From NCBI GenBank assembly GCA_002118135.1, contig BDIU01000052.1, positions 1 through 64,000 of the forward strand: 64,000 nt of DNA, written 5' to 3'. The notes under the pieces were generated by a model that was not told the DNA's origin, did not search any database, and was given only the letters and a program-made list of their open reading frames with translations. A program made the position numbers and the translations under genes. Positions 1 through 27,061 of this stretch are shown here, piece by piece (position 1 is the first letter of the stretch; each line of letters starts with the position of its first letter). This DNA comes from Trebouxia sp. TZW2008 (taxonomy: Eukaryota; Chlorophyta; Trebouxiophyceae; Trebouxiales; Trebouxiaceae).

Positions 1-245
1 CTCCACCATTGTATTGATCCGGGCTTTATCCTCATGAGCGAACGTAGACTTCGACGTCGCTCTTAGAATCCCTTTTAGGGCTGCCCTAATTTCTTGCTAG
101 GGTCCATCTTGCGTCTGAGCGTCGAGCAGCTCAGTGATCAAATGAGAGAGGTCGTTCTCTAGGCTGCAGAACTCTTCTACTTCAAAGGGCTTTTTGGACT
201 GTTTGATGTCCTTGAGTTGCCTGATGGCCAGTTGCAGGTGCTCCA
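1..245 (-). pseudogene. Broken coding fragment at left edge
   Basis: Read on the minus strand, one frame gives protein-like, charged sequence starting LEHLQLAIRQLKDIKQSK, then KPFEVEEFCSLENDLSHL, a TAG stop near 108, and then more protein-like sequence in the same frame (QEIRAALKGILRATSKST) running off the window edge. Another TAG lies just before the LEHLQ segment, where 'tttag' could equally be a 3' splice site. I do not recognise the family. The stop inside otherwise coherent sequence suggests a decayed gene or retroelement open frame. A missed intron is possible but I see no good donor at the internal stop. Confidence 0.35.
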
Positions 246-1455: not shown

Positions 1456-4400
1456 ATGCTCAGCAGTTTCCTCAAAGGGTGCGGGATCTGTGAGGTAAAG
1501 TTCCGACAGCTTGCGGATGACCTCCCTTTTGCCCTGCGCTTGTATGCCCGTTCTGTAACGACAGCAGCAGCACAGTCGCCATGTGTGCCAGTGACGCACC
1601 CGTCGTACATGATCTGGGGGGCAAACACCGATGTCGGAAAGACAATGGTTTCTGCTGGCCTAGCCAGATCAGCGCAACGCAACAAGGTCCTTAGCATTGT
1701 TGAGACGCTCCCCTTAACAACACAGGTGGCAAGTGCTGAGAAACACTGTGTCTGCAGCTAAGACTGGACTTCCTCAAACCGGTGCAAACAGGCTTTCCAC
1801 AAGACAGTGATGCCAGGCTAGTGGTACGCGCTGACAACAAGCCTCTGCAAACATCATTCAAAACCACATAGCCCAGCATGCACTTCATGCATGCAGGCTC
1901 TTGCAATCAATGCTAGACACCAGCTTGGCGAGCATGCTGCACAGCTGTTCAAGCAGCAGCCACAGAACCACTTTCAGCCCGTCAAGACCAGTTCAGCCAG
2001 CACCACTTTTGCTTGGAGTCAGCCCGTCAGCCCACATGTGGCAGTGCAGAAAGAAGGTGAGCCCAGTCAGGTCTGAAAGCAACACACTCAGCTAGGTGCA
2101 GAGCCTTGCAGCAGTCAGTGATATGAAAGTGCTTGTGCTTATAGACCTCCCGTCTCACAAAAGAGTGTGCCAACCTGTTGCAAAGATTCGGCGCTTCTTG
2201 ATGTCGACAGCATGGCCTGTGTCCTCTGGCAAATCCATCAATCATTCAGAATCATAGGATATGCGCCACACAAACCTAGCACATGTGCTGGAACGTGTGA
2301 CCTTTTCATATAATTTCATATTATTCATTCTCAAACAGCACTGCCAAGGCTTGGTCAACTCACCAGAACAAGCCATTCACTCAAGTCATGTACGTGGTGC
2401 AGGCAAAAGCACGTATTCGTACACCATATGCATCACTTGTAACATAGCATGCCTCATATCTTTCACATCATTACGCGCTTTGCAGAGTGTCTTAAGCTGC
2501 AAGGCATGCCTTTCAAGGCCATTAGCTGCCACTTTGCGGATTCACAGGTCATCTAGCTTTACATGTCAGTCTGCAAATACATTGTATTGCAGCTTCTTCT
2601 GTATAGCTGCAAGCAGTCTGTGATTTCACAGGTCGCCCAGTGTCAGATTCACAGCTGCAGGCCGCTGTACTGGAGCACCTGAACTCAGCAGCACAACTTG
2701 CTTACGCAGAGCAGTTGCCTAGTTTGACTTTGGTTGAGACAGCTGGGGGCCCTGCCAGCCCGGCCCCTTCTGGCTCCCTTCAGGTAGGGCGCTTTCCAGC
2801 TGTGGCCCTATTCAAGCATAGCATGAGCATGCCACAAGCCACATGGTCTCACGTGTGATAGCTGTGATAGCTGCATATCAGAGCAAGCCTGTATCAGACA
2901 GCAATCTTGACCAGTAGCAAATGTCTTATGAGCAAATCGCTTTGCTATGCTCATACTGAGGCCCATGACTCACGCATCACATGTAAGCATGCTAGGCCAG
3001 AAGAAGGGTAAAATTCCAGTACAGTGCAACTGCTGAGTTGTCATCAAACAAACAGCTCATCAGTCCTCAAGGCTGCCTCTCTGACCTGGCTTTGCTGACT
3101 GATTGGAGACAGTTGCTTGCTTCTGTACGTACCTAGATGGGCCTGCTGAGCCTGCCTAGCCCACGTTTACAATGCATGAATGAATAAATGAATTTGCTGA
3201 CTGCAAGTGCAGTGTGACTGTTGGCGTCTGTTACGACTGCCAGCCATACTAGTCGCTGACAGCAGGCTAGGAGGAATCTCAACCAGCCTGTCTGCCTATG
3301 AGACTCTGTCAACAAGGGGCTATGACGTACCGGTCGTAGTCATGGCTGACAGCCAGCTGGCAGATTCAAACAGCCAAGCCATCAGAGCAAATGTGAAGGC
3401 TGACACAGAGGTTGTGGTTCTGCCAAAGCATCTGCCAGCAGCACCTCAGTCTAGGTGTGCATCCCAAACATTGAACCTATTACGTATATGACACACTAAA
3501 GTTTATAGTTGACATGTCACCGCCAGATGCACTCAGTCAAGCCATCAGAGCAAATGTGGAAGATGACACAGAGGTTGCGGTTCTGCCAAAGCATCTGCCA
3601 GCAGCACTTCAGTCTGGGTCGGCAATGCAATCACTGCACATTGATGCGTGAGCAACTAACAACACATTGGTTTGTATACTGTCTTGACGGGTCATTGATC
3701 ATGAACATTTACAGCATCTTTCCTGATGGTCCATCTGCTGGCAACACAAAACCTGAAAGATGCTGATTGCTGCTGTCAGGATCGCTGCAAGCTGTCGCAG
3801 CATCTACAACCTGGTACGTTATGCACACGCAAGCTGACTGTGAAGTGCTGCTTCACTCAGAGTGACGCTCTGTAAAGCTTGCTTTGTGCAGAGAGCGCAC
3901 GCAACCTGACTTTTGAGCTGCTGCTTGACTCAGAGTGACGCTCTGTAAAGCTTGCTTTGTGCAGAGAGCGCATGCAACCTGACTTTGAGCTGCTGATTGA
4001 CTCAGAGTGACACTCTGTAAAGCTTGCTTTGTGTAGAGAGCGCATGCAACCTGACTTTGAGCCGCTGCTTGACTCAGAGTGACGCTCTGTAAAGCTTGCT
4101 TTGTGCAGAGAGCGCATGCAACCTGACTCTGAGCTGCTGATTGACTCAGAGTGATGCTCTGTAAAGCTTGCTTTGTGCAGAGAGCGCATGCAACCTGACT
4201 CTGAGCTGCTGATTGACTCAGAGGGACGCTCTGCAAAGCTTGCTTTGTGCAGAGAGCCCATACAACACGGCTCTGAGCTGTTGCTTGAGTTGCAGAGACA
4301 TGAATGTGCTGCAAAGCCAGCTTTGTGCGGAAGGTGTGTGCAACATGGCTTGCAGCTATGGCCTGACACGCAAGGATTTAGGGTTTTGGTTTAGGGTTTA

Positions 4401-7400
4401 TAATCTGTATTGCTAGCCTTGTGCAACAAACTGCAAGCAATGTGGCTGTGAAGTATTGTTTTGACCTGCAGGGACATGGACGCTCTGGATCCGGAGCTGC
4501 AGCAGTGGCTTAAGGACTGCGATCCAGCCTTTGATGACCTAATTCAGCATCTGCTTCAAAACCACGCCCAGCGCTGTAAGTTATGTTCTGTGCTGTTCAG
4601 AGTCATGAGTCTTCATACTCTGTCTTTGAAGCATGCCCAGCGCTGTAGCGCCCTTTTCTCCATAACTGCATTGCATGCCTCTGCAATTGTGCCGTAGTCA
4701 CAAGGTTGAGCCATAGTTGTTGCTGACTTTTTGTGCGTCAGTCTTGACCTCTCTGCCTTGTCATGTTTGTCATTTGAAGAGCAGTCGCTGTCTTGGGTGT
4801 TGAATGCCTCTTCTACTTGCGTATATCACAAACTTGATTTCTACCTGCAAACGGGACTGCTGCATTGCATTAGGCTTGCTCATCATCTTCCTAGCTGTTG
4901 CTAACATGCATATGGTAACTCAGTGACAGCCCAATGCTAAGCACCACTCACCAAAACAAGTATGGTCAGCATGAGACAACAACAGTTTTATGCTAAGCAT
5001 GGAAGATCCACACAAGTATGGCTTGCAGCAATCTCAAAAGGCATTGTGCTCAGCCTGTCCCACCAGCACAAGCTTGCCTATCATGCATCTCAACAAGCAC
5101 TGACAGCATCATGCAAAGCAGAAGCCATCAAAAAACGACTAGCATGCATCTGAGTACTCACTGACAGCGTAATGCCAGCAGCATCTTGCAATAAATCAAT
5201 TACTTCCTTTTGCAGTGAAGCTTTTGGACAGCACTCAAGCCGCTGCAAAGCAAACAATCTGGTGGCCATTCACGCAGCACTCCACTGTGCTCACGGCCAA
5301 TGTTACAGTCATTGACTCCAGATGTGGGGAATCCTTTGCTGTGTACAAGCCTAGCAACGAGAGCGGCCCAGCAAGACTGCAAGCACAATATGATGCATGT
5401 GCAAGCTGGTGGACTCAGGTGACACAGCGCCTCAGCGTAGTAGTGTTTTGTCTCAGTGTATCAATGGTTGCTGTGCTCAAAGATAGCGTCACTGTGATTG
5501 ACTCCAGATGTGGGGAGTCCTTTGCTGTGTACCAGCCTAGCAATGAGAACGGCCCAGCAAAACTGCAAGCGCAGTATGATGCATGTGCAAGCTGGTGGAC
5601 TCAGGTGAGCCATGATTTTGATGTTGACTTGTCTGGCTATTACGTGCTTGTGTCTAATGGGCGTTGCATGATGCGTACGCACGCTTCTGGTCTCAATTGA
5701 GATGTGGTCTCAGTGCAATGGTGCTAGATCACAGCGTACTGTGTGTGCTCACAGCATCAAAACTTGGTAGCAGTGTGATGTGTTTGACAGGACGTAAGTG
5801 CAGAATTGCAGTACAAGCTGCTGACCAATCCTGTGGTGCTCTTTGTGGTTTTTGCACTTCAGCCTGTGAACCTATGCCTGTCATGCTACTGGGCTTATTT
5901 GGCCAGCTTGGATTGTGGGCAGCGCTTGCACTCAGCAGTGCAACGCCGATCATTGCACTCTTGGGCTACTCTTCTGTTGTGCCTAGTGTCCATCAGATCT
6001 TGCTTCGTTTGCAGAGCTTGAGTGCAGAGCTGCGGTCTAAGCTAACGAGCAATGTTGTGGTGATCCTGTGTCTCCTCCTAAGCCTGTTTGCCGCCGTCTG
6101 CCATACCACTGTACCCCTTGGCCTGATTGAGAGCTTATGCTTGCTGTGCCCATTCACTCTTGCCTCATCTGCAGGGCTTGAGTGCAGAGCTGCAGCTCAA
6201 ACTGGTGAGCAGCAGAGCTTTATTTCTTGCGCTCCCTGCCTCCCAGTCTGTTCATACTTTCTGTTTCCATCAACAATTGCCTGATCTGCAGGATTTGAGT
6301 GCAGAGCTGCAGCCCAAACTGGTGAGCAGCATGGTGTACGCAGCAGGCCAGTCACATGCCTTCAGTGATTATATTTTCTTTGCCCATCCACTCTTGCTTC
6401 ATCCGCAGGGCTTGAGTGCAGAGCTGCAACCCAAGCTAGTGAGCAGCACAGCTCCTTCCTTGCAGTCCTGTTTGCTCATGCTTTTTGAGCCCATCAAGAT
6501 TTGGCTGATCTGCAGGGTGTAAGCGCAGAGCTGCAGCAACAAAGTTGTGCTGAGTATGCTCCTTGCTCTTGAGCCTGTCTGCTCATGCCTGCTGAACTCA
6601 AGCACTCTGTTGGCCTGCCTAAAAGCATATGCTTTTTGTGCTCATCAGCTTCTGCCTTGCAAGCAGGGCTTGAGCGTAGAGCTGCAGCCTAAGTTAGTGA
6701 GCAGCATGGCGTACGCAGCAGGCCGCTACGGACATGTCATCTTCCCAGAAAACGCTCATCAGCCTGCCCTTGATCTGGCCCAGAAGCTGTTGTCTGGAGT
6801 TGGGCGGGGCTGGGCAGATAGGGTCTTCTTCTCAGACAATGGGTAGGTAATAGTTGCCTGCAGTGGTCTTGCATCTTCACGCACTGCCAGATCTTTACAA
6901 GTGTGGCTGTTGTCATCTTCCCAGAAAATGCCCATTAGCCCGCCCTTGATCTGGCTCAAAAGCTATTGTCTGGAGTTGGGTGTGGATGGGCTGACAGAGT
7001 CTTCTTCTGAGACAATGGGTATGTAACAGTTGCCTGCAGTGGTCTTGCATGAGAGAGAGAGAGATTGCACGCTTTGGCCAGCCAACAAGTCTGATCGTTC
7101 CCATCTTCCCAGAAAATGGCCATCAGCCCGCCCTTGACTTAGCTCAAAAGCTGCTGTCTGGGGTCGGGCGAGGGTGGGCAGACAAGCTCTTCTTCTCAGA
7201 CAATGGGTACATCAAACTCACCTGCAGTAGTGCTTTGAGAGCTGCAATTGCAATGTCTGCTTGCTCTTGCTGGCCGTGGCAATGCTTGGTGCTGGCGTTT
7301 GCAAACCAACAGAAACTTGGTCCACACCAAGGCTGCGCAGACATGGTCACAGATGCCCAGCTGTCTCCATGTCATCTTGTGCACTGTCCAATGTGTTGCT

Positions 7401-10400
7401 CTCTCACAGGCAGAGTTTTCTGTGCTGATGGATGTCTGTTCAGGCCGTCATGAGCAAATGCAAAGCTTTCAGGTGGCAAATGGTCAGCTGACTGGCTGCT
7501 GCAGGTCAACGGCCATTGAAGTTGCCTTGAAGATGGCTATGCGCAAGTATGTGCATGATCGGGCAGGCGTCATCTGGCAGGGGGGACCCGAGCTGCAAGT
7601 GGTGGGTCTCAGCAACGGCTACCATGGAGATACACTGGGCGCTATGGACGCTGTGGCTCAGTCGCCATACAATGACTTCAATCAGACGCCCTGGTGAGTC
7701 AAAAGGCATTTCAGTAAGAAGTTGCAGCGCAACTGATATATAATGAGTTCAGACAGACACCCCTGGTGAGTCAACAGGAGCCTGGGACACATTGGCTCCA
7801 CAGTGATTGGTTCAACTATTTGCTGAACTTCTTGTCTTAAGTGGGTGCCAGCAATGGCTATCATGGAGATACCTTGGGCGCTATGGATACTGTGGCTCAG
7901 TCACCCTACAACGACTTCAATCAGACACCTTGGTAAGTCAAACCCAATTGGTGGAACAGGAAAGTATGATTGCAACTAGACACTGTGACGAATGTTCCAA
8001 ATAAAATGTGGCCTAGTCGCCTTAGCATGGCTTCAATAAAATCATATAAGCCAAAGCAAGCCTGTAGCATATTGGACTCACCAATGGCAATCCACTGGTC
8101 GCTATGGACGCTGTGGCTCAGTCACCCTACGGTGACTTCAGCCAGACACCCTGGTAGAACTTGTTCTGAGATCAAGTTGCTGCAAGAGTTAGAGTAAGTG
8201 AATGGGCGTTTCAGCTCAGTTACCATACAACATTGTCAACCAGACCCTTGGCAAGCCAAAGCCCGCTTATTGCACAGTGAACTCATGAACGGCTGCCATG
8301 GCAACACACTGGATGCTATGGATGCTGTGGCTCAGTCGCCTTCCAATGACTTCAGCCACTCGCCCTGGTAAGACTTGATCTAAGACCAAGTTGATGCAAG
8401 AGTTAGAGCACGTGAATGGGCTTCAACCAGACACCCTGGTGAGTCTTCTTCACCATGGGAATAACAGCAACTGCCTATGTCAAGGCAAGAGTGTCTTCAT
8501 TCTGCATGTCTATAAGGCGTGCATCGTGTTGAGCATCAGGCAATCGTCAGCAGTCTCCCATGCGAGTTGCGTTTGAGGGCTACACGTGCACTCCTTGCTG
8601 ACATGTTCGGGTCTCTGAGACATGCAGCAGTGCTCACCTGTGTCATGCAGCTCATTTTCTGGACCTACAGAAGCACATGCAACATGCAAGCTTCACAAAA
8701 ACAAAATAGATCAAGTAAGTCTGCTACATGGCTTACAGGAACAGGGTAAGGCTTTCCTACCTTGCATTCGCGCAGGCACAGGTGCCAATCAATCAACAAC
8801 GCGTGCCTTGCAGGTTTCAGTCAAGAGGCTTGTTCATTGACCCACCCACGGCGGGCATGACTAAGGGCCAGTGGCAAGTGCACCTGCCGCCGCAGCTGCA
8901 GCAGCATGTATCACAGCACAGCACGGATGTTCAGCTTGCGTTCTCAACCAGAGCAGAGCTTTTCAGCGGCAGGCAGGCGACGCAAGAAGTGTACACTTCT
9001 TACATTGCTGCTGGCATGCGACAGTATGAGGCAGCAGCTGAGAGTGACATGGCGAGGGGCAGACGCATTGCTGCTTGTATCATGGAGCCTGTTATTCAGG
9101 TACTACAGTGAGCTCTCGATATAACGACTGCATTGGTTACCAGGAAATTGTCCTTACATCAAATGGTCCTTACTCAGGAGTACCACTGCAGTCAGAATGC
9201 AGTGCTTGGTTCCCACTTGCATTGTCTTTACGTTGAAATTGTCTTTGTATCGAGTGTCCTTGCGTCAAGAGATCAATGTACCTGCTTCTGCTATCGTCAG
9301 CTATTGAGGCCTTCTGTCCAGTTGAAAGTACGCGGCCCTGCCGGCTCATGGCCATTGCAAGCAGCACACATCACTCAGTGACAAGCTGTCACTGATCGCA
9401 TGCATTGCTGCCTGGTTATGTTCAATGCAAGCTATAGCACAAGGCAGCGGATGAGAGTGAATTGGAGAGGGGCGGACGCATTGCTGCTTGTATCATGGAG
9501 CCTGTCGTTCAGGTATTGCCTGCTTCTGCTGATCTCAAAGATGCAGGCCTGGTAAGAGCCACATGCATTTGCTGCCTACTTATGCTCGATGCATGCAGCA
9601 CTACAGTGTGACAAGCCATCCCTGCTGTTGCCGTCAAAGAATAAGGTCTGCTATGGCAATGGCATCATGCGTTGTCTTGCTTAATGTATGCAATAGCACA
9701 GGATGGTAGAGCAGAGTGAGACAGAGAGGAGGTGATGCATTGCTGCTTGTATCATGAAGCCTGTCATTCAGGTATTGCCTGCTTCTGCTGTTTATAGGGG
9801 TGCAAGGCCTCTGATTGCAGTAACAGTTCCAACTCCTGCCTATGTGTGCCTTTGTAGCCAGCACAGCAGTTTGACAAATCAATGCAACAGTGGCAACAGC
9901 AAGGCGTCATCAAGTCGGTCATTCCTGTGCTGACGCGTCATACACCCAGCGTGTTGTCTGGAACTTGCAGGAAATGTGTTTCGTGTGCTGCAACAGAAGG
10001 AATCCAGTCGTGTCATTCAGATGTTCAAGAGATGTGCTGCTTCAATGCAGGGCGCGGGTGGCATGGTCATGATTGACCCAGCCTTCCAGCAAGCTCTTGC
10101 GCGGCATTGCCAACAGAATGACATGCGTTTCATCTTAAATGGCAGCTTAATAAAGAATCTTGAAAAAAACATGCTAAATATCAAGCAGGGTGCGGGTGGC
10201 GTGTTGGTGATTGACACAGCCTTTCAGCAAGCTCTTGCCCAACACCGTCAACAGAACAACATTCCAGTCATCTCGGACGCGGTTATCAGAATCGGCATCA
10301 TACCCTTCGCAAACTGTTTCTATCATGTCAAAGCATTAACAGGTGGATGACACCTCAAGACATGTGCTTTACTGTTTTGCAGGGCGCAGGTGGCATGGTC

Positions 10401-13400
10401 ATGGTTGACCCAGCCTTCCAGCAAGCTCTTGCCCGGCATTGTCAACAGAACAACATTCCTGTCATCTTGGACGAAGTGTTTAGCGGCATTTGGCGGCTGG
10501 GCCGACTCTCAGCAGCCCACATGCTTGGTATCAAGCCTGACATAGCGTGCTATGCCAAGCTGCTCACAGGTAATGCTGGCATTAGACACAGCATGCTATG
10601 TGAAACTGCTCACGGCTCATGCTGGAACTGAATCTTTCAGCAGCTCACATGCTTGGCAGTAGGTCTGGAATAGCATGCTATGCCAAATGCTCACAGGTAA
10701 AGCTGGGTTAATTGCTGTCAGCAGCCTATATGCTTGATTTCAAACCTGGCATAGCCTGCTACGTAAAGCTGCTTACAGGTAATGCTGGAATTTGACACAG
10801 CGTGCTACATCCAAGTGCTCACGGCTCATGCTGGAATTGAGTTTTTCAGCAGCTCACATGCTTGGCAGTAGGCCTGACTTAGCATGCTATGCCAAACTGC
10901 TCACAGGTAAAGCTGGGTTTATCGCTGTTAGCAGCCTACATGCTTGGTGTCAATCCTGACCTAGCGTGCTAAGCCGAGCTGCTCACAGGTAATGCTGGCA
11001 TTAGACACAGCATGCTATGTGAAACTGCTCACGGCTCATGCTGGAAGTGATGTTTTCAGCCGCTCACATGCTTAGCAGTAGGTCTGGAGTAGCGTGCTAT
11101 ACCGAGTTGCCCATATGTGATGCTGGGATTGGTGTTTCCAGCAGCCTATATGCTTGGTGTCAAAGCTGACATAGCGTGCTAAGCCAAGCTGCTCACAGGT
11201 TGTGCTGTGAATTGACATAGCATGCTTTGCCTTACTGCTCACAGAATTTGCCGGCCAGATGTGTATCCTGCCCACATGTTACTTAACAAGCCTGACATGA
11301 CGTGCTATGCCAGATTAGATTGGGCTGGATGTAGCATGCTATGCTAAGCTGCTCATAGGTGATAGTCTCATTGCAATTCAACAGTTGTGTCAGCATGCTA
11401 TATGCTTGATGCCAAACCTGAGATCGCGTGCTATGCCCAGCTGCTTACAGGTAGTGCTCTGAATCAATGTGGCATGCTACGCCAAAGTGCTCACAGCCAA
11501 TGTGATTTGTACTGCCCACATGCTAGGCATCAAGCCTGACATAGAGTACTATGCCAAAATGTATTAAGCCTGACGTAGCGTGTTACGCCAAACCACTAGT
11601 GATGATCTTGCTATGCCAAGCTGCTCTTAGGTGCATGTCGCATCTCTGGTCCATCATGCCAGCAGCTCAATTGCTCAGCATCAACCTCCATACAATGTGT
11701 GTTAATGAACTGGTGTAAGGCAACAATACTGGCCCTATTGCTAAGCTGCCAATGATTTGCCAAAGCAATTCCGATGGCTGCAGCACATGCTGTCTTGAAC
11801 GCATGCAAGTCAGTGTGGAACACATCCCTGACCTGTACTCATTGCAACATGCCTGGCCATACCGGAGAATCTCCTGTTGTTTCAAACCCTTTGTGTAGTG
11901 TTGATTCTAACTGTTATCATGCTTGCAGGCGGCATGCTGCCCCTCAGCAAGTTTAGCAACCAACAGCATCTTTGAAGCCTTCCAGCACGATTCCAAGCTA
12001 AAGGCTCCGTTGCATGGCCACTCCTACACAGCGCATGCCATTGGCTGCAATGCCACCGTCACAGCACTACAAACAGTATTCTTTGTAGTGTATTTCAACA
12101 CTGAGCTCTTGTTGTAAGAGCTTCTGCATGAATGCAGGCGGCATGCTACCCCTCTCTGCCACTTTAGCAACCAGCAGCATCTTTGAAGCCTTTCAGCACG
12201 ACTCCAAGCTCAAGGCTCTGTTGCACTGTCAACCCTACACAGCTCACGCCATTGGCTGCAATGCTGCCATCACAGCACCAGAGCAATGCTCCTTGTGGTG
12301 TATTTCAACACTTAGCTCTTGTTGTAAGAGCTTTTGCATGACTGCAGGCGGCATGCTGCCCCTCTCAGCGACTTTAGCAACCAACATCATCTTTGAAGCC
12401 TTCCAGGATGATTCCAAGCTCAAGGCGCTTCTTCACGGTCACTCCTACACAGCGCATGCCATTGGCTGCAGCGCTGCCAACACGGCACTAAGACAATATT
12501 TTTGTCGTGTGTTTCAACGCAAAGCTCTTGTTCTGCATGACTGCAGGCGGCATGCTGCCCCTCTCAGCAACCTTAGCAACCAGCAGCATCTTTGATGCCT
12601 TCCAGCATGATTCCAAGCTCAAGGCTCTGCTGCATGGTCACTCCTACACGGCGCATGCCATTGGCTGCAGCGCTGCCAACACAGCATTGGACCTGTACAC
12701 CGATCCAGCCTGCAACCCAAACTTTCCTCAGACTCAGACTCAGACTCAGACTCAGATTCAGGCTGTGACTTTGGCAGAGACTCAGACTCAAGCTGAGACT
12801 GCAGCTGGGACTCAGGCCAAGATCGAGGCTGAGTCTGAGGCCGAGGTGCCCAGCTTGCTGGAACTCTGGGATGAGCAGATTGTTGAGCAGCTCAGCAGGC
12901 ATGACAGAGTACAGAAGGTTGTTGCGTTGGGTAAGCTGCTGTGGCCTGTTTTGAAGTGCTTTTGATGCTGTCATTGATGTCCCTGTTTTGCTTATGCTTT
13001 TGTTGTAGCCATTGTATGCAAGCAGTTTTGTGATCGATACTGCAGGTCTCGCACCGCTTGACTGTCACACCCTGAAGGATGATACCTGCAAAGCATCCCA
13101 GCCTATGCTGGACTGCATGCATGGCAGCGTTTTAGCTACTTCAGTTTGGTCTGCACACATGATATTGCTTGTGAGCACTGCTGTCTTCTTTTCATGCACT
13201 GATGTTGTACTGTCACGCCTTGGCAGATCTATCCCTTACGAACTCTTACTGTTCGGTATTGTTACATTTGGCTTGGCAGCTTGCAAGCACGTGTAAGTTC
13301 AATCAGCAACAAAGGTTTCATCAGTGCGGAGACCTGATTTTGGGAAAGGTATTGACTCTGTTACTGCTGTCTAGCATAAGTACAAGGTGAGTGCATTTAA

Positions 13401-13645
13401 GATATAAAGTCATCTGAGACCTGACTGTGTGCTTTTGTCATACAGGTACAGTTTTTGCTGCTGAGCTGAAGACAAGTGGTGTCTCAGGCTATGGCGCTAC
13501 AGAGGCTGTGCAAGTGGTGAGGGATCTACGGACCGAAGGCATCTATGCCAGGCCGCTCGGCAACGTCGTTTACTTGATGGTCACTCCTGTCACAGCCCCT
13601 CAGACCTGCACAAACCTTCTGCAGCAACTGATGTCCGTGTTGTGA
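1456..13645 (+). CDS. BIO3-BIO1: Bifunctional dethiobiotin synthetase / DAPA aminotransferase
   Basis: The protein catalyses two successive biotin-synthesis steps: 7,8-diaminopelargonate formation by transamination, then ring closure to dethiobiotin. I assign exons 1456-1686, 1758-1823, 1897-2056, 2632-2783, 3213-3454, 4472-4575, 5216-5418, 6667-6842, 7505-7693, 8814-9099, 10383-10569, 12547-12930 and 13446-13645. All phases join, giving about 859 aa against roughly 830 in land plants. The N-terminus resembles a mitochondrial presequence. The synthetase half has the P-loop GANTDVGKT (residues 55-63), KPVQTG and ETAGGPASP. The aminotransferase half has WWPFTQH, GSTAIEVALK, YHGDTLGAM, the cofactor-binding Asp of ILDEVFSG, the Schiff-base Lys of CYAKLLTGG, GHSYTAH and a C-terminal RPLGNVVYLM. 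Exon 1 could instead end at 1725 (13 extra residues). Exon 12 carries a Q/T/E-rich insertion absent from plant homologues. About 79% of the gene is intron, much of it made of exon-edge copies. Confidence 0.93.
3100..3194 (+). mobile_element. 5'-truncated LINE 3' end
   Basis: The segment encodes DWRQLLASVRT followed by TAG, the same C-terminus (WRQLIAxVRT-stop) found at 28276 and 59335. It continues with a shared 3' UTR containing 'gggcctgctgagcctgcc' and ends in GAATGAATAAATGAATT, a simple tail. It lies in intron 4 of the biotin gene, ending only about 18 bases before exon 5. Inference: a heavily 5'-truncated non-LTR retrotransposon insertion. Confidence 0.7.
3538..3618 (+). repeat. Copy of biotin-gene exon 5 3' end
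   Basis: This repeats 3374-3455 nearly base for base, including the part encoding QAIRANVKADTEVVVLPKHL (here with ED for KA), but the junction reads 'tctgggtc' instead of the real 'tctaggtg'. It lies in intron 5, downstream of the true exon. Confidence 0.85.
3850..4330. repeat. 72-bp minisatellite in intron 5
   Basis: About 6.5 head-to-tail copies, with unit starts near 3861, 3934, 4006, 4078, 4150 and 4222 (spacing 73, then 72). Each unit contains 'gtgacgctctgtaaagcttg' or a near variant. As 72 is divisible by three, a minus-strand reading frame stays open through the array, but this is a by-product and not a gene. The last, most diverged unit contains 'gcagagacatgaatgtgctg', which resembles the 5' edge of real exon 6 at 4468 ('gcagggacatggacgctctg'). 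Confidence 0.9.
4378..4400 (+). repeat. Short interstitial telomere-like motif
   Basis: Two TTTAGGG heptamers (4378-4384 and 4390-4396) separated by TTTTGG and followed by TTTA. TTTAGGG is the common plant and green-algal telomere unit. The tract is only about 23 bp and directly follows the 72-bp minisatellite, so it may be chance or a scar of break repair. Confidence 0.5.
5487..5604 (+). repeat. Second copy of biotin-gene exon 7
   Basis: This duplicates the 3' two thirds of exon 7 (5300-5418), encoding VTVIDSRCGESFAVYQPSNE and onward to ASWWTQ, then CAG|GTGAGC. It has no stop and a strong donor. A possible acceptor 'ctcaaag' precedes it. Only 69 bases separate the copies, and the reading frame happens to stay open across both. 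The copy differs by a few conservative changes (Y/Q, S/N, R/K), so it is either recent or still under constraint. Confidence 0.85.
6010..6560 (+). repeat. Five copies of biotin-gene exon 8 5' edge
   Basis: Copies near 6014, 6171, 6290, 6408 and 6513 of the polypyrimidine-CAG acceptor plus the first part of exon 8 precede the true exon at 6667. Each encodes a variant of GLSAELQPKL. Most are followed at once by GTGAGC, a good donor, so each could act as a 30-base phase-0 micro-exon. A still more diverged relative lies near 5795. Spacing is 105-157 bases. Confidence 0.85.
6905..7206 (+). repeat. Two copies of biotin-gene exon 8 3' end
   Basis: Copies at about 6913-7018 and 7097-7206 follow the real exon 8 (6667-6842). 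The first has a TAG where the real exon encodes His-Gln and a TGA near its end. The second is open and encodes IFPENGHQPALDLAQKLLSG and onward to FFSDNG, ending AATGG|GTACAT. The second copy could therefore be spliced to exon 9 in frame if an upstream acceptor is used. A short GA tract (7050-7064) lies between them. Confidence 0.85.
7744..8445 (+). repeat. Copies of biotin-gene exon 9 3' end
   Basis: At least three long copies (about 7842-7934, 8075-8155 and 8279-8371) and two short ones (7744-7768 and 8419-8442) repeat the end of exon 9. That end encodes NGYHGDTLGAMDAVAQSPYN through FNQTPW, with donors such as TTG|GTAAGT and CTG|GTGAGT. The 7842 copy is completely open and nearly identical in protein. 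The others carry substitutions or lose the GYHGDT motif (for example 'aatggcaatccactgg'). Confidence 0.85.
9106..9288 (+). mobile_element. Tc1/pogo-like MITE copy
   Basis: It begins CAGTGAGCTCTCGATATAACG directly after the exon 10 donor, a typical pogo/Tigger-like terminus. It shares its core ('cactgcagtcagaatgcagtg', 'ccttac' blocks, 'ttgaaattgtc') with the better preserved element at 32304-32476. The right end is degraded and its limit is approximate. Confidence 0.6.
9449..9771 (+). repeat. Two copies of biotin-gene exon 10 3' end
   Basis: Segments at 9449-9513 and 9705-9771 repeat the end of exon 10 (RIAACIMEPVIQ|gt) together with about 25 bases of following intron ('gtattgcctgcttctgctg'). 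The second has TGA in place of the ATG-GAG region ('atcatgaagcct') and other changes. Both lie in intron 10. Confidence 0.8.
10050..10292 (+). repeat. Two copies of biotin-gene exon 11 5' edge
   Basis: Copies beginning after 'caatgcag' (about 10051) and 'caagcag' (about 10190) encode GAGGMVMIDPAFQQALARHC and GAGGVLVIDTAFQQALAQHR, close to the true exon 11 at 10383. The first diverges after the NDMRFIL segment. The second continues to PVISDAV, losing the DEVFSG motif and hence the cofactor-binding Asp context. Confidence 0.85.
10626..11635 (+). repeat. About nine-copy array of exon 11 3' end
   Basis: After real exon 11 ends at 10569, its last 60-70 bases plus donor recur through intron 11. 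These encode SAAHMLGIKPDIACYAKLLT, the segment carrying the PLP lysine. Donor-like junctions 'ctcacaggt' or 'cttacaggt' occur near 10688, 10769, 10906, 10979, 11190, 11349, 11441 and 11622, with further partial units. Copies have drifted by substitutions and small deletions. Confidence 0.85.
11929..12495 (+). repeat. Three copies of biotin-gene exon 12 5' part
   Basis: Copies starting after CAG near 11929, 12136 and 12347 encode variants of GGMLPLSATLATSSIFEAFQ and onward to HSYTAHAIGC. They precede the true exon 12 at 12547. The first has a frame disruption ('cccctcagcaagtttagc'). The second and third are open. Each is followed by intron-like DNA with 'ttgttgtaagagctt' or similar, so the repeated unit (about 200 bases) spans exon start and flanking intron. 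Confidence 0.88.
12727..12840 (+). repeat. ACTCAG hexamer tract inside exon 12
   Basis: A run of ACTCAG units (12729-12758) grading into degenerate 'actcag/gctgag' repeats encodes QTQTQTQ and then a Q/T/A/E-rich segment of about 40 residues. It is inserted in the aminotransferase half between the DLYTDPACN and LLELWDEQIVEQ segments. It keeps frame and lies away from the catalytic motifs. Confidence 0.85.
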
Positions 13646-13679
13646 AGCCCCTACCCTTCATGTTAGCGGCTTTGCAAGG

Positions 13680-13955
13680 TAGAGTTGCGAGGCAAAGGCG
13701 TCCATGCCAGGCCGCTCGGCAATGTGGTTTACTTGATGGTCACTCCTATCGCGGCCCCTCAAAACTGCACAAACCTGCTGCAACAGCTACTATCTGTGTT
13801 CTGATCCTGTCGCCCTTTTGATGACAGAATTGTGGGGGCGAAAAGCAGAAATGCCAGGCCATCGGGCACTGTGGTTTATGTGTCGGTCAGTCCTATTACA
13901 GACCCTCAGACCTGCGCAAATCTGCTACAGCAGTTTGCTGTCTGTACTGTAACGC
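13680..13955 (+). repeat. Two copies of the terminal exon of the biotin gene
   Basis: Downstream of the stop at 13643-13645 the final exon's last 100 or so bases recur at about 13685-13803 and 13837-13950. They encode ARPLGNVVYLMVTPIAAPQN and a more diverged ARPSGTVVYVSVSPITDPQT. The first copy ends in its own TGA near the true position. The second ends in a TAA within 'ctgtaac', and that TGTAA could be a polyadenylation signal. Confidence 0.85.
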
Positions 13956-14446: not shown

Positions 14447-17400
14447 ATGGCTCCGTCTCTTTTTGATAATCTTGAGGGCTCACATTTCGACTTTCAGCTA
14501 GGTCCAGCTCTCGGCATGTGGGACAAGTATGGTGAGCTTGCGCTAGCTTTGACGATTCTTTTGGCAGATTGAATGCTTTGCAGTGCGTTTGTGACACACC
14601 AGCGTCGCAGCAAGTGTGCGTTGCGTGACAAATGCGCAACTCTGTCCTGCAGGCCCTGCTGAGCAGGATGACGACCAGAGCGGACACATACCGGGTGGAG
14701 CCAGCTTTTGGGACGTCGTGGATCAGTGCACTGCGGACAATGTCCAGAATTCATCAGGTGCGCAGCCACGCTTGTGTTTCGACACCTTTCTTGCTCTGAA
14801 TAGCTGCAAAGACATCACAAGACATCTGCTAACATCAGCTGGAACTGCAGGTTCACCAAGCAGACATAGATGGGGGTTTGCACATGACGTTGACGCTGAT
14901 GGTCCCAATCATGCAGCTTTTGCCGCCTTGCCAGCTTTTGGTCAGGCAGCATGGGCATCCAGTCCAGCTGGCAACCCTGCTCAGTTTGCAGACTCACTGC
15001 TCACACCAGACCTGCATTTGCTAGACAACACAGCAGTCTCTGGCTCTCTGGATGTATCTGAATTGGCTGATGGCACTTACCAGGACGCAGCACAGGAGTT
15101 TCAGGCAAATGCACCTTTGCAGCCGGCAGAACAGGCACAGGCTGTCAAGAAGCCTCTTCTGTTTAAGAAGGAAGACCAAGTGGCACTGCAGTCACAGCAG
15201 GGACAGCGCTTGCAAATGTCCTCCTTGGCAAGCCAACTGAACAGTGGCAGCCTGGATATAAACGAGATTGCTGCTGCTGCTGGTGGTGCTGCAATTGCTC
15301 AGGGTGGCAACAGTGATGACGATGGCTTTGACTTTGGGGCACCTTCAGATGAGGAGGAGAGTGATGCTGAAGGTGTGCAGATGCAGCACCCAGATGTTGC
15401 ATCACTCCAGGCCCTTTCAGAGACAGCAACCCACGCTCAGGCAGTGGTCAGGCCTGCAGCTGGTTCAAAGTCATCATTGACAGCGCCAAATCAGCCACCA
15501 TCACCTCAGAATGCCTCTCACCTCATTATTGAGCTTAGCTCTTCCCAATCTGCAGCTGAGGCTGCAGCTGATCCAGTGTCTGCACCGCTTTCAATGCCCG
15601 CTGCCGAGCCACAAAGCCATGCCAACGCAGTCTTGGTCGAATCTGCTGTGCAAGACGCTGAGCAGATTGCACAGTCAGAGGCAACCCCCAAAGCTTCTGC
15701 AGCACTACCAGAGGCTCAAATGGACATTGACATGGCTGATGCAGCTGCAGCCAACAATGAGCAGGCACCACAACCAAATGCACCCTTCCAGGCCTCTGCT
15801 GCAGCGTCAAAAGCGCCAGCCAACATTGACATGGCTGATGCAGCTGTGGCAGACGCTGAGCAAGCAGCACAGCCAATTTCATCCCCAAAGGCACCCGCTG
15901 CATCTCCACAAATCCAAGCCGGACCTATCAACAATGATGCTGACGCAAGCAATGCAGCTGTGGCAAACACTGAGCAAGCAGCACAGCCAGCTGCAGCTCC
16001 TGAGGCACCTGCCCCACCTCCCATGGCTGATGCAGTCATGATGGAGGCTGTTGCAGCAGACTTTGAGCAGCCACCACCAGCCCTGCCACAGTTTGTGGAG
16101 GCAGTGTGCGAGAGAACGCGCTCTAGAAAGCGCACAGCTGAGCCTAACCCTGAGTCAGCCATTCCCCAGGTAGCTGCTGCAGCGGTTCTGGATAGTGGTA
16201 CATTAGCTGCGCCTCAGAGGAAGAGGCAGAAGCGCATTGAGCCTGCTGCCACAGCTGTGCCTGGTGAGACCCTGGCTTTACACAGTGAATTTGCTTTGCG
16301 TCCACTTCATTGTCATCAAGATTAACATTCATGTATCAAGTTGTCCCTACACAGCAATATGTTTGCAGTCAGAATACAGCAGTTGCATATGGAAGATTCC
16401 CAATTGTATTGTCCCTACAGTACAGATGTCCATATTCTCAGTGTCTCTACTGTAGCATCAATAGCTAATATCTTGCACTGGAGGGTGACAGTCTGTACGG
16501 TGGCATTACATTCTGCATGGCAGGGTTCAAAATGCAATGGATTTTGACGCAGGCCCAGCTAAGAGGCCAGCTGTCCCCAAAAGGAAGAAGGCTACCGCTT
16601 CAAGGGCGGCTGCCACAGCTGTGGGCGGTGAGAGGTCAACTGTACCTGGCAGGAAGACCACTGCCTCGAGGCCTGCTGCCACAGCTGCGGCTGCTGAGAG
16701 GCCAGCTGCCCTTCAGAGGCCAGAGCGCTCTAGGCCTGCTGCCACAGCTGTGGCGGATGACAGCTCAGCAGCCCTTCAGCGCAAGAGGCAGCGCTCCCAG
16801 CCTGCTGCCACAGCTGTGCCTGGTGAGGCCCTGGCTTTATCATTCATCAAGTCTTGTGTGCAGCAGTGTGTTCTCCTGCTACCGACTGCTCTAGTCCTCA
16901 GCAACATGTTCTTATATGAAGCTGTTCTTACTCACAGGCAACACTGCAGTCAGATCACAGTGATTGTCCCCCAATTGTGTTGTCCTTACAGCATGAACGT
17001 ACCTGTATTGAGAGATCTTATGAGATTAACACTGTAGCATCAAAAGCTAAACTTTGGCTTGTGATAGGAGAATGAGATAATTTGTAGGGGCAGGGTCAGG
17101 ATTGTACAATGTTGCATGGCAGGCTTCAAATTTGACGAGTGCTTATGCAGGGGCCAATGAGAGGCCAGCTGCCCCTCAGAAGCAGACGACCACCGCCTCA
17201 AGGGCGGCAGCCACAGCTGCGGCTGACAGTGGGGCAAGGGCTGCAAGAGGCAAGGGCCGCAAGCCTGCAACCGCCCCTGCCTGGTCCAAGCCTGTGTTGG
17301 AGAGTGAGCAGTTTGCTCAGGCTGTGAGTGATGGGGTGATGTTTGCCAAGATGGCGGGATACAACCACTGGCCTGCTCAGGTATGCAATACACTTTGGCA

Positions 17401-18014
17401 CTGTGCCATGGTATCAGTCATGTGCAGTGGTCATGCAATGCTTGAGATTGTGCTAAAAAGCCTCCTGTGTCAGTTTTCAAGAAAGCATGGTAGCCCAATA
17501 CTTGAGATTTGATGCTGAGCTGCACATCTTGCATTGACGTCCAGCATGTAAACAAGTCCCAGCAGTGTCACCTTTCAACACCTGGCGTTCACATGTGAGA
17601 TGCACAACTTCCAATTCATGATGCTCGAGACCTTCAGCACAGTAGAACAAGGCGCAAGGCATCACCTCCCGCCATCCTACCACTACCTTGTCAAGTTCTT
17701 TGAAGATGTAATTTCGGTTGCGTTCATTAATGTTTGGCATGTTTACTGTACAGGTGCAGACACCAACAGCGCAGCAGAAGAAGGTATTAGGCATCACCCT
17801 TCTGCCAGCAAATCAGTCATTCGTCATCTTTTTTGGTCCTGAGCACTCTTGCGCAATGGTGAGCAGCAAGCAGCTGCTGTCCTTGGAGGCTGGACTTGGC
17901 AGCATGCAGGCCAGCAAGGCGTCAGCTGGCCTGAAGGCCGCCACTGATGAGGCTGCGGCTTTTGTCAGAAACCGCCTTGCTCGCCCCACCACCACTGCTG
18001 CCAGACTGCAGTGA
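14447..18014 (+). CDS. PWWP-domain protein, copy A
   Basis: Six exons (14447-14531, 14653-14757, 14851-16263, 16553-16822, 17151-17380, 17754-18014) join in phase to about 787 aa. Order: a short N-terminus (MAPSLFDNLEGS); a long low-complexity Ala/Gln/Asp-rich region with acidic FDFGAPSDEEESD; basic modules of the type RKRxxxxRPAATAV repeated across exons 3-5; and a C-terminal PWWP domain beginning FAKMAGYNHWPAQ and continuing VLGITLLPANQSFVIFFGPE. PWWP domains bind methylated histone tails and DNA, so a nuclear chromatin role is likely. The exact partner is unknown. The 93-base second intron is a multiple of three and has no stop, so it could be retained. The paralogue at 22682 confirms the exon structure. 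Confidence 0.85.
16270..16456 (+). mobile_element. MITE relic in PWWP-A intron 3
   Basis: It shares 'gcagtcagaatacagcag', 'ttcccaattgtattgtccct' and the terminal 'tctactgtag' with the family defined by the 32304 element. It occupies most of intron 3. Ends are degraded and approximate. Confidence 0.6.
16900..17036 (+). mobile_element. MITE relic in PWWP-A intron 4
   Basis: Core matches include 'ttactcacaggcaacactgc', 'agtgattgtcccccaattgt' and a right end 'attaacactgtag'. It belongs to the same family as the relic in intron 3. It supports duplication of an exon plus MITE-bearing intron block within this gene. Confidence 0.6.
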
Positions 18015-18297
18015 CTGGGCTCACGCCTAGTCATTGTCCCAGTCTGTCTTCAGTCTCCTCTTCTTTCTTGTCTTCTTCCTCTTCAGCTTTTGTTTTACCT
18101 CTTAACCTTCTTCACCTGCTTCACTGCCTTCCTCTGCTTCACTTTCTGCACCCACTTTGTCTGTGTCTTCTGGTGCAAGTTGGGTATCAGTCCCTCTGTA
18201 CATACCATATCTGTCACCAGTCAGAACCAGCAGCAGCTGCCACTGGGTCTTTACCCAGCTATGCAATTTGCTGCAGCTTCAGATGTCACAATGACGC

Positions 18298-18298
<1 letters not shown>

Positions 18299-18343
<45 letters not shown>
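18299..18343 (+). repeat. (CAG)15 tract
   Basis: Fifteen uninterrupted CAG triplets about 285 bases downstream of the PWWP-A stop, probably in the 3' UTR or flank. The paralogous position at 26722-26752 has about ten units interrupted by TAG. Confidence 0.95.
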
Positions 18344-18346
<3 letters not shown>

Positions 18347-19071
18347 TGCTGCCCACTACAGTATCATCGATTGCAAAACAACAATTTTCCAGCCCTAGTG
18401 CACCAGCATTGTAGCTAAGTTATTTAAGCAGCTCGAAACATCGCCTCCAGCAGCAAGATCATGTTGATCTCTCAGCTGCATTGCGCAGAAGGTTAGCATC
18501 AGCCCTTATATAATCTGCAGCCCAGCTTATGCTACAGCAAAGCAGTGGCAGCTGTCATGCTCCTCATAGGCTGGCGCCAAGACCACCCCCCCCCCCCCTC
18601 AACCCGTCTTGCAGTGTCCCGGGACCCATCAGACTCCCCCAGTAGGCCTGCTTGGACTTTCATATCCACCCACACATACACAGACAGATTTCGAGGGAGC
18701 TGCTCACATGTTCTCCGCACAGGCCAGAGCTGACGGCCTGCCCTTCAGCCCATCTGGCAGTGCCCTGGAGGGGACCCCAGCGCCCTGCAACCCACTTAAC
18801 AGAGCCCAGGAAAACCCCCCTGGGCCTGTAAGTCGACATGCAGTGGCCTGGACCATCCCCACGTGGCCTGCATGGGTAGCTGCCCATCTTATGATCCATA
18901 TACACTGGTAGCTGCCGATGCTGAGATCTGAGTGTAGCATGCCTCCTCTTCCGCCCTTTAGCCTGATCAAACTCCAAGTCCATCTCATACCCAAGAGTCC
19001 TTCAGCACAGCCCCTGTCCACCCCTACTGGGGGCCCTGCCAGGCGCTACATTACCTGAGGTTCACCCGCCG

Positions 19072-19135
<64 letters not shown>

Positions 19136-19164
19136 CCCCCCCCCCCCCCCCGCCGCCCCCTTTC
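19072..19164 (+). repeat. Poly-C run, 63 C then C-rich
   Basis: Sixty-three consecutive C (19072-19134), one G, fifteen C, then CGCCGCCCCC. The other strand would be a very long G run able to form G-quadruplexes. A shorter counterpart with two ambiguous bases lies at 27009-27060 in the other duplicate. Run length may be inexact because sequencing often fails here. Confidence 0.95.
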
Positions 19165-19594
19165 CTGACCCGACACCCCCAGGGTCAGGGCAGACCTTTG
19201 CCTTACTCAGCCCTTCTGATCACCTGGGTTCTACTGCCAGCATGCAATGGCAACAGGCCAGCTTCAGGGGTGATGCTGATGCATCACAGGCATTTAGGCT
19301 CCTGCTGGGAAGCTGACCATTGCCAGGTACTGAGCAATTGTACTATTCATGCTTGTTTATGTAGCATTTTGGCACATGCACATCAATACAAGCAAGACTT
19401 CATAGCTGCACAGTACCCACCCTTGGTCATGGACAAGCACAACTTCAACTTGCTGTGCCTTTGCTATGCCCTATCAAAATTGTATTCTGACCATTACAAT
19501 CAGTATCTGACATTGATCAGAAGATCACTGTGCTAAGCAAAGCACTGCAAGTGTCTTTGATGTAAGGGGCTGAGCTGGCTGTGTTACTTTTCAG

Positions 19595-20140
19595 GTGTTT
19601 GAGTCATCAATGATCCTCCACACACTTTTGCTTCCCCTCTTCATTCCCTCCGACATGACCGCCTTCATCCAGTCACCTCTTCTCTTCGAGCGGCAGAGCA
19701 CAAATATCATGCAGTACATCCAAACTTGCTCATCAGCACAGCAAGCATATCAGCAGCACAGCAACGGCAGGGGTTTGCTCCTCTCATGACCTGCTGGAGC
19801 CCCAGCTTGTTCAGGTAGAACACACAGCACATGCGATCTGTTTTGCTTGAACGCATGCGAGTGCATTGGTCATGCAGCATGCAGACTGTACCAGTTGCAG
19901 CTGTGTTTCATTTCTGCTCACTTTTGTCATACGACTCTGCAGTGTATACGCACTAGTCTCGTGAATGCAACAGCGACTTGCAAGGTCAGGCAGGCTAGTG
20001 TCTGCTGCATAGGTCCAGCACCTGACCCAACTTGCTTGGCACTGCAGGGTTGTGTGTGCTCCTTTTCTGCTCTGCAAGTCTTAGAGCGCTATCAAGGCGG
20101 TGCCTGAACACCATCGGCCAAGTGGTCCAGCATGCAGTTA
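19595..20140 (+). other. Conserved segment of the duplication, gene status unclear
   Basis: The blocks after 'caggtgtttgagt' (19591) and after 'gcactgcagggttgtg' (20040) are shared with 27980 and 28560. In this copy the first block is open (VFESSMILHTLLLPLFIPSD) with a preceding CAG acceptor. In the other copy the same place reads VFE followed by a stop. It may be exons of a gene that has decayed in one copy, or non-coding. I recognise no family. Confidence 0.3.
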
Positions 20141-25600: not shown

Positions 25601-26450
25601 CCAGCTGCCCCTCAGAAGCAGACGACCACTGCCTCAAGGGCAGCAGCCCCAGCTGCGGCCGGCAGTGGGGCAAGGGCTGCAAGGGGCAGGGGGCGCAAGT
25701 CTGCAGCAGCCCCTGCCTGGGCCAAGCCTGTGTTGGAGAGTGAGCAGTTTGCTCAGGCTGTGAGTGATGGGGTGGTGTTTGCTAAGATGGTGGGCTACTC
25801 CCACTGGCCTGCTCAGGTATGCAATACAATTTGGAACTGTGCCATGGTAGCAGTCATGTGCAGTGGTCATGCAATGCTTGAGATTGTGCTAAAAAGCCTC
25901 CTGTGTCAGTTTTCAAGAAAGCATGGTAGCCAAATACTTGAGATTTGACGCTGAGCTGCACATCTTGCATTGACGTCCAGCATGTAAACAAGTCCCAGCA
26001 GTGTCACCTTTCAACACCTGGCGTTCACATGTGAGATGCACAACTTCCAATTCATGATGCTCAAGACCTTCAGCACAGTAGAACAAGGCGCAAGGCATCA
26101 CCTCCTGCCACCCAAACACTACCTTCTCAGGTTCTGTTGAAATGTAATTTCAGTTGCATTCATTGATGTTTGGCATGTTTACTGTACAGGTGCAGACACC
26201 AACAGCGCAGCAGAAGAAGGTGTTAGGCATCACCCGTCTGCCAGCGAATCAGTCATTCGTCATCTTTTTTGGTCCTGAGCACTCTTGCGAAATGGTGAGC
26301 AGCAAGCAGCTGCTGACCTTTGAGGCTGGACTTGGCAGCATGCAAGTCAGCAAGGCGTCAACTGGTATGAAGGCCGCCACTGATGAGGCTGCAGCCTTTG
26401 TGAAGAGCCGCCTTGCTCAGCCCATCACCACTGCTGCCAGACTGCAGTGA
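22682..26450 (+). CDS. PWWP-domain protein, copy B
   Basis: This is the paralogue of the 14447 gene. Exons 22682-22766, 22878-22985, 23059-24699, 24988-25257, 25587-25816 and 26190-26450 join in phase to about 864 aa. It starts MAPGLPLHATHPYSQALRET. It has the same acidic FDFGAPSDEEESD block, a longer Ala/Gln/Asp-rich region, the RxAATAV basic modules and a C-terminal PWWP domain (FAKMVGYSHWPAQ, then VLGITRLPANQSFVIFFGPE). Exon lengths of 85, 270, 230 and 261 bases are identical to copy A, while exons 2 and 3 differ. The PWWP core is more conserved than the disordered part. Both copies are open throughout, so both are probably expressed. A chromatin-reader role is inferred from the domain. 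Confidence 0.85.
24740..24897 (+). mobile_element. MITE relic in PWWP-B intron 3
   Basis: Shares 'cattgcagtcagaacacagt', 'ggttcccaattgcacagtc' and right end 'agaaattactgtag' with the family. It occupies the intron equivalent to that at 16270, so it predates the gene duplication. Confidence 0.6.
25345..25474 (+). mobile_element. MITE relic in PWWP-B intron 4
   Basis: Counterpart of 16900-17036, with 'ttactcagaggcaacactgc', 'attgtcccccaattgtgttg' and right end 'ataaacactgtgg'. Confidence 0.6.
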
Positions 26451-26721
26451 CTGGGCTCACGCCTAGTCACTGTTCCAGTCTGTCTTCAGTCTCCTTCTTT
26501 CTTGCCTGCTTCCTCTTCTTCACCTTCCTGTTCAGCTGCTTCATGTCTTTCTCTTCTTCACCTTCGGCACCTGCCTGATCTAGCTTTGTCTAATGTCTTC
26601 TGGTGCAAGTTGGGCATCAGTCCCGCTGCGCATGTCAATTCTGTGACACAGTGAAGACCAGCAGCAGCTGCCACAGGGTCTTCAGCCAGTCAAGCACCCC
26701 TCAGCAGCTCCAAATGTCATG

Positions 26722-26722
26722 C

Positions 26723-26752
<30 letters not shown>
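26722..26752 (+). repeat. Interrupted CAG tract, copy B
   Basis: About ten triplets, four CAG then TAG then five CAG, at the position paralogous to the pure (CAG)15 at 18299. Confidence 0.9.
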
Positions 26753-26753
<1 letters not shown>

Positions 26754-27008
26754 AATGCTGCCCACTGTTGTTCACCTAACCAATTGCAAAGTAGTCCTGT
26801 TTCAGCACTGTCACACCAGCATTGTAGCTATGATACTCCACCATCTAGCAACATCGCCATCGGCAACAGTATCACGATGACCTCCCAGCTGCATCGCGCA
26901 GAAGCTTGCCATCAGCCCTTATATAATCTGCAGCCCAGCTTATGCTACAGAATGGCGAAGCAGTGGCAGGTGTTATGCTCCTCATAGGCTAGCGCCGAGA
27001 CACACCTT

Positions 27009-27061
27009 CCCCCCCCCCCCCCCCCCCCCCCTCNNCCGCGACCACCCTCCCCCCCCCCCCC
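27009..27061 (+). repeat. C-rich tract with two ambiguous bases
   Basis: Two long C runs flank CTCNNCCGCG, with N at 27034-27035. This is the counterpart of the C-rich region in the first duplicate. The Ns mark a base-calling failure, so local length is uncertain. Confidence 0.95.

Follow-up and report, generated by a model that had tools for sequence, protein, structure and literature searches.

Local tandem copies of exon–intron junctions in the introns of a fused biotin-synthesis gene and other genes of Trebouxia sp. TZW2008

Intron length is often put down to transposons. A biotin-synthesis gene of the green alga Trebouxia sp. TZW2008 raises the question of a more local source, in that the DNA of its exon–intron junctions recurs, from exon 5 onward, within the adjoining introns. 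How do these junction copies (here termed echoes) arise, what fixes their position relative to the exon, and are they maintained? The window, i.e., the whole 64,000-nucleotide stretch of contig BDIU01000052.1 that was analysed, has a GC content of 51% and belongs to an assembly of 68.5 Mb in 527 contigs; published Trebouxia genomes are given as 62–71 Mb with a GC content of about 50% in the parts of the reports drawn on here.

The gene occupies 1456..13645 on the forward strand and encodes a fused dethiobiotin synthetase/DAPA (7,8-diaminopelargonic acid) aminotransferase in 13 exons. The predicted spliced product is a single open frame of 858 amino acids, not the 859 given in the original prediction, with GT-AG introns throughout; splicing in this model follows from frame and conservation only. 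For the first intron, a 71-base version was preferred to one of 32 bases. The exons, placed by frame and homology, are as follows.

Exons 1–5, forward strand: 1456-1686, 1758-1820, 1897-2056, 2632-2783, 3213-3454
Exons 6–9, forward strand: 4472-4575, 5216-5418, 6667-6842, 7505-7693
Exons 10–13, forward strand: 8814-9099, 10383-10569, 12547-12930, 13446-13645

A protein search with the enzyme gave 2328 matches in 8000 scored candidates. Among the best 120 of the 2328, the closest are the contig protein P0001 and proteins of Trebouxia sp. C0010 and C0004 (each 65% identity), followed by those of other green algae, protists, and plants. The alignment of P0001 is collinear with the gene model over 12/12 junctions; in the other five of the six aligned relatives, one or both ends, or an inner piece, are absent. 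No repeated segment is present in the six aligned proteins, including full-length P0001.

Self-comparison of the gene region by self-BLAST makes the arrays visible: it yields 51 direct pairs and 0 inverted pairs, and 40 first-order Markov shuffles yield 0 repeat pairs within 1 kb at the same threshold. Under an echo rule applied to all genes (E 1e-4, within 700 bp), 10 of the 26 exon ends are echoed, namely the 3′ ends of exons 5, 7, 8, 9, 10, 11, and 13 and the 5′ ends of exons 8, 11, and 12. Every edge named in the original prediction (3′ edges of exons 5, 8, 9, 10, 11, and the terminal exon; 5′ edges of exons 8, 11, and 12) was thus re-found, but the exon 7 3′-edge echo had been overlooked. 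All echoes are intron-side or post-stop: copies of 3′ ends lie downstream of the exon and copies of 5′ ends upstream, as had been proposed, with no exception at the 10 echoed ends. The copies also share the orientation of the gene and have diverged unequally (differences of about 5–35%), again as first described. Only some of the echo spacings are multiples of three.

3505..3639, forward strand: exon 5 3′-edge echo (true copy 3342-3476), 80% identical ungapped, with a 96-bp core at 90%
5471..5608, forward strand: exon 7 3′-edge echo (true copy 5285-5422), 186-bp unit, 88% identical over 138 bp
5987..6558, forward strand: five exon 8 5′-edge echoes, each with an acceptor AG (sequence alignment)
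6911..7238, forward strand: two exon 8 3′-edge echoes (sequence alignment)
7841..8377, forward strand: three exon 9 3′-edge echoes (sequence alignment)
9427..9790, forward strand: two exon 10 3′-edge echoes (sequence alignment)
10025..10279, forward strand: two exon 11 5′-edge echoes (self-BLAST and alignment)
10570..11650, forward strand: exon 11 3′-edge echo array with units of differing length (TRF: 82 and 210 bp), intron sequence included
11912..12487, forward strand: three exon 12 5′-edge echoes, unit about 210 bp (TRF and alignment)
13695..13955, forward strand: two terminal-exon 3′-end echoes, beyond the stop codon (sequence alignment)

The earlier statement that such arrays fill nearly every intron is too broad, as copies lie in six of the 12 introns (5, 7, 8, 9, 10, and 11); introns 1–4, 6, and 12 contain no copies at E 1e-3 within 1 kb. 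All repeat types together make up 36–84% of each of the six repeat-bearing introns and 45% of all intron bases of the gene. When the 21 non-redundant pairs of the gene are classified, 10 involve an exon edge and the other 11 lie wholly in introns. The latter include one array without an exon edge.

3829..4288, forward strand: intron-only tandem array, 72-bp unit, 6.4 copies (TRF)

Echoes are not peculiar to the biotin gene but also occur in chaperonin and HSP70 genes. Profile searches of the genome gave 63 exon matches for chaperonin (PF00118) and 54 matches for HSP70 (PF00012). The chaperonin sample comprises all 12 loci, chosen irrespective of repeats, of which 10 have usable exons; the HSP70 sample comprises five of ten contigs, two of them picked since repeats were already visible. 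In the chaperonin genes, 9/118 exon ends are echoed, in 6 of the 10 genes, and in the HSP70 genes 9/76, in 3 of the 5. The HSP70 echoes surfaced as surplus matches to identical profile positions; one gene (C150), for example, has two additional exon-start copies upstream of the exon, in steps of about 172 bp. Six to seven of the 15 chaperonin and HSP70 genes have no echo under the same rule, and no echo with the wrong polarity was found in the chaperonin, HSP70, or biotin genes.

The 57 non-redundant pairs in the 16 genes (a count made after four profile matches, regarded as echoes, had been struck from the exon list) consist of 26 echoes, 27 intron-only pairs, and four pairs touching exon interiors. 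None has the wrong polarity, against about 2.9 expected under random placement; none has both copies in exons, against about 8.2 expected; and none covers a whole exon. Placement and repeat density were both assessed in this genome only.

These features are very probably explained by frequent short tandem duplication of DNA that is filtered afterwards by splicing. The nuclear genome would undergo short-range tandem duplications, mostly with units of 60–270 bp, at many places and times. A duplication internal to an exon would last only where the protein tolerates the change, and one internal to an intron would persist freely, whereas a duplication that spans a junction would be tolerated only if the splice site nearest the exon core stays in use. 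With two donors after such an event, use of the second would add the exon end and intron DNA to the mRNA, whereas use of the first would leave the mRNA unchanged; acceptors would behave as the mirror image of donors, so that mainly the observed order would survive. The surplus piece of exon would turn into intron, decay nearly unconstrained, and lengthen the intron. If the inner splice site is the one used, 3′-edge copies follow the used exon and 5′-edge copies precede it. The order noted at the outset, in which the first copy serves as the 3′ edge and the last copy as the 5′ edge, therefore holds, but a separate mechanism for it is unneeded, because with any other choice of site the mRNA would gain intron DNA. 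The terminal exon follows the same order, with a stop codon in place of the splice site, and its copies past the stop codon, where splicing plays no part, support a polarity based on selection.

An alternative is that duplication is itself directed to junctions, with R-loops, splicing-coupled breaks, or border sequence biasing its starts or ends. In keeping with this, the share of junction echoes among viable pairs is about twice that expected at random in all three gene sets (biotin gene, 0.48 vs. 0.20, P 0.005; HSP70, 0.53 vs. 0.19, P 0.0035; chaperonin, 0.37 vs. 0.21, P 0.065), and the biotin gene is richer in echoed ends than the chaperonin genes (10/26 vs. 9/118, Fisher P 2e-4). However, the chaperonin set does not by itself depart clearly from random, intron-only pairs are as frequent as echoes (27 vs. 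26), and the exon ends derived from profiles are approximate and the repeat arrays are not independent events. Echoes also stay detectable longer, one member being constrained; this is estimated to keep a pair detectable about 1.5 times longer and accounts for part of the junction excess. Direction to junctions is therefore an unlikely addition to the scheme. Equally doubtful is its stronger form, a generator of tandem duplications of nucleosome or Okazaki-fragment length that favors exon–intron borders, in which splicing and duplication would be coupled and introns would grow outward from exons; if it did exist, spare splice sites would pile up as a by-product over gene families, together with fossil exon ends.

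The filtered-duplication account predicts decay of the surplus copies, and the pattern of substitution bears on this. Differences between used exons and echoes fall at the three codon positions as 96/82/193 (30 alignments). When changes are assigned to one copy (eight families with at least two echoes), those private to the used exon number 8/3/21 and those private to echoes 53/37/68, which indicates that echoes are nearly free of coding constraint; a mild third-position excess in echoes is expected where the private branch includes part of the history of the used exon. Where the two copies differ, relatives match the used copy at 101 residues and the echo at 18, and 26 are uninformative; these totals are drawn from 26 overlapping comparisons, and the 18 represent 10 different positions. 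Most of the 18 are most simply read as changes in the used exon, with the older state kept in the echo; at residues 389, 610, 677, and 681, for instance, the echo holds the residue of the relatives and the used exon has apparently changed.

The copies include intron DNA. In exon 8, 32 intron sites show two differences, and in two exon 11 copies 22 intron sites show two and zero differences; in the remaining copies, the intron portion is short or more diverged.

Echoes might instead be alternative or mutually exclusive partial exons, retained for protein or regulatory variety. Third-position-heavy differences between used exon and echo in exons 8 (2/1/11), 12 (3/2/14), and 9 (3/1/9), the GT or AG retained in most echoes, and the open, in-frame 186-bp unit of exon 7 would all suit such a role. 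Against it, in-frame stops occur in 5/30 aligned echoes and frame-breaking gaps in several, the private changes of echoes lean only mildly to third positions (68/158), a whole exon with both splice sites is copied in 0/57 pairs, and full-length P0001 has no repeated segment. Retention for variety is accordingly improbable, and more so than direction of duplication to junctions.

Exon 7 is an exception to the general agreement of relatives with the used copy. The exon, its echo, and the spacer share one open frame (5173-5700), with a repeat step of 62 codons, and the echo beats the used copy in its match to relatives at four of six informative residues, being closer to them at residues 344–346 and 362. 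The copy used in the model is therefore a provisional choice, since the echo fits the relatives better and the 186-bp unit is open in frame, and either copy or a combination of the two may be spliced.

When the splice sites carried by the echoes of the biotin gene were initially scored, GT or AG was kept at a fixed register at 25/26 sites, the 26th being intact after a one-base shift, a result at first suggestive of selection on spare sites. Sub-copies of the exon 11 array add two more intact sites, five lost sites, and two alignments that stop short of the junction, which brings the gene to 28 kept, five lost, and two not scorable (28/33). In the echoes of the other genes, 27 rows judged by eye give 18 kept, six lost, and three not scorable, one of the last through overlapping windows. 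Given a neutral expectation of 0.71–0.76, the chance of such retention is 0.05–0.15 for the biotin gene and 0.41–0.64 for the other genes; pooled (46/57 sites kept), it is 0.06–0.24 when shared history is ignored. Selection to retain spare splice sites was accordingly dropped as an explanation, retention being not clearly above the neutral level, although in the biotin gene alone it may operate. Spare sites are thus present in most echoes, as had been suggested, but they appear to be inherited passively, and upkeep above the neutral level is unsupported.

Mobile elements, such as introners or other dispersed repeats, could also have carried the copies. Dispersed families do occur within these introns, and one element, with approximate ends, lies just inside intron 10 after the donor.

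9103..9281, no strand assigned: dispersed element of about 180 bp (genome matches)

This element has at least 43 matches on at least 39 other contigs, on both strands, at 78–85% identity, and it fills the list of genome matches for 9100-10382 (40 of 1372 candidates scored). Both exon 10 echoes keep the start of the intron without the element (one shown as an aligned empty site, the other as the printed echo). Because both echoes show the empty site, the insertion most simply came after the exon 10 duplication, so that the echoes would record the site before it was occupied. The intron stretches 7050-7097 and 8704-8806 likewise have many genome-wide matches on both strands. By contrast, the exon 11–12 stretch has no match at any other genome locus, and for 6100-9100 no outside match falls in an echo among 40 scored of 98 candidates. 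Transport by mobile elements is therefore very unlikely, on a comparison that was full for exons 11–12 and covered the other echoes in part. Weaker copies of the intron 10 element (69–78%) are found elsewhere in the window at 16864-16989, 25315-25419, 32302-32485, and 56751-56913. Copies of another short dispersed family, up to 93% identical to one another and in both orientations, lie at 3098-3185, 28249-28348, 31209-31302, and 59302-59413.

Local duplication also has a characteristic geometry. In 219.3 kb, consisting of the window and the gene loci without one overlapping locus (L006, which overlaps L004) and thus not a random sample, 200 local pairs are direct and three inverted; an inverted origin of the copies was ruled out on this count. 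The spacing to the nearest copy is 60–270 bp in 100/114 pairs, with a median of 150 bp, and is wider in 13; the comparison allowed distances of up to 3 kb, and the lower limit of spacing is partly set by detection. A unit near the length of a nucleosome or an Okazaki fragment points to replication or its repair, which may be the step that generates the duplications. The literature search returned no direct report on duplication units of nucleosome or Okazaki size.

The share of repeats rises with intron length (Spearman 0.62; 94 introns or inter-match gaps in 16 genes), and 9/10 of these in the longest class bear repeats, against 0/15 of those under 200 bp. This correlation is not in itself proof of growth, because longer introns give more room. 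Array content is also underestimated by TRF, since the tandem-repeat scan of locus L052 was empty despite arrays visible by BLAST. The central proposal of the original prediction, that tandem duplications across junctions recur and lengthen introns, is nevertheless supported by the copied intron sequence, the varied divergence, the direct orientation, the local spacing, and the correlation with length taken together.

The possibility that pieces of the contig were falsely duplicated during assembly can be judged from the same divergence. Nothing was found that favors such an artefact: copies differ by about 5–35% plus indels, no HSP of at least 40 bp reaches 92% identity, and the closest single units inside arrays reach no more than 94–95% (HSPs average over units). 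An artefact of this kind is the least credible of the explanations; assembly may instead have erred in the other direction, by collapsing young copies that were identical. The absence of HSPs at or above 92% also counts against the preferred account of frequent duplication, being unlike a steady process; the scarcity of young copies may reflect a burst long ago, instability of copies that are identical, or their collapse during assembly.

That introns can be gained through tandem genomic duplication is well established, according to the part of the review drawn on here (PMC3443670), and in Drosophila some novel introns are traced, in the portion of the work cited, to tandem duplication of coding sequence. 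The closest published case is potato RdRp, in which, as far as the cited part of the report describes it, the tandem unit contains the last part of an intron together with the first part of the exon that follows (PMC4974935); the 5′-edge echoes described here are the same type of unit. In both settings, on the evidence of these partial sources, a short stretch of a gene is copied directly and in tandem with its splice signals ready-made. The Trebouxia loci have such direct, adjacent DNA copies (200:3, with intron sequence and the empty site) and keep a workable coding sequence (12 collinear junctions; 0/57 pairs with both copies exonic), with exon 7 provisional. The difference lies in the outcome and the recurrence: elsewhere, to judge from the cited sections, tandem duplication yields a new intron and a piece of exon, whereas here an existing intron would lengthen and the surplus exon fragment be discarded, and, unlike the potato case as excerpted (PMC4974935), the event recurs, both within a single gene and among the three families examined. 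Internal gene duplication, as described in work citing Gao and Lynch (2009), likewise involves duplication of part of a gene including introns.

Tandem or mutually exclusive exons resemble the echoes, in the accounts drawn on in part here, in having exon sequence repeated alongside in the same orientation. Unlike mutually exclusive exons as there described, however, the copies here are partial, have one splice site, and are decaying, with a whole exon in 0/57 pairs; constraint on every copy is not seen (53/37/68; stops in 5/30). Introners share with the echoes that repeated sequence forms intron DNA but are dispersed families, in the cited part of PMC9860276, whereas the exon 11–12 copies are confined to a single locus; copies at many unrelated loci are thus not found for exons 11–12, and the search covers the other echoes in part.

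The earlier remark that no named system of this kind is known in algae must be amended in part, in that tandem genomic duplication is published, including the junction-spanning potato case. No dense array of this type in green algae was seen in the literature searched, which is weak evidence because most subscription journals lie outside that search. The event type is therefore known, whereas its density and its tie to intron length look new, with existing introns lengthened by junction-spanning duplication that recurs within a gene and over the three families examined.

Several consequences follow for how such introns are read. Part of intron growth becomes readable as local copies, and pieces derived from exons act as fossils that preserve older residues and, in intron 10, the empty site of an element. 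The arrays provide a natural set of duplicated splice sites for testing site choice and exon definition. Echoes could also mislead gene predictors, as the surplus HSP70 profile matches illustrate.

Repeats of other kinds are found elsewhere in the window. The neighboring stretches 15111-20137 and 23310-28644 are paralogous, about 67–80% identical by segment, and both contain coding-looking repeats of 63–99 bp. Each includes one long poly-C run, at 19072-19160 and 27009-27061, respectively, and the only two N of the window (27034-27035) lie inside the latter. Of 20 TRF rows with a period of at least 12, 16 have an open frame, and 14 of these 16 have a period divisible by three, a count given little weight because the rows overlap and such periods favor open frames.
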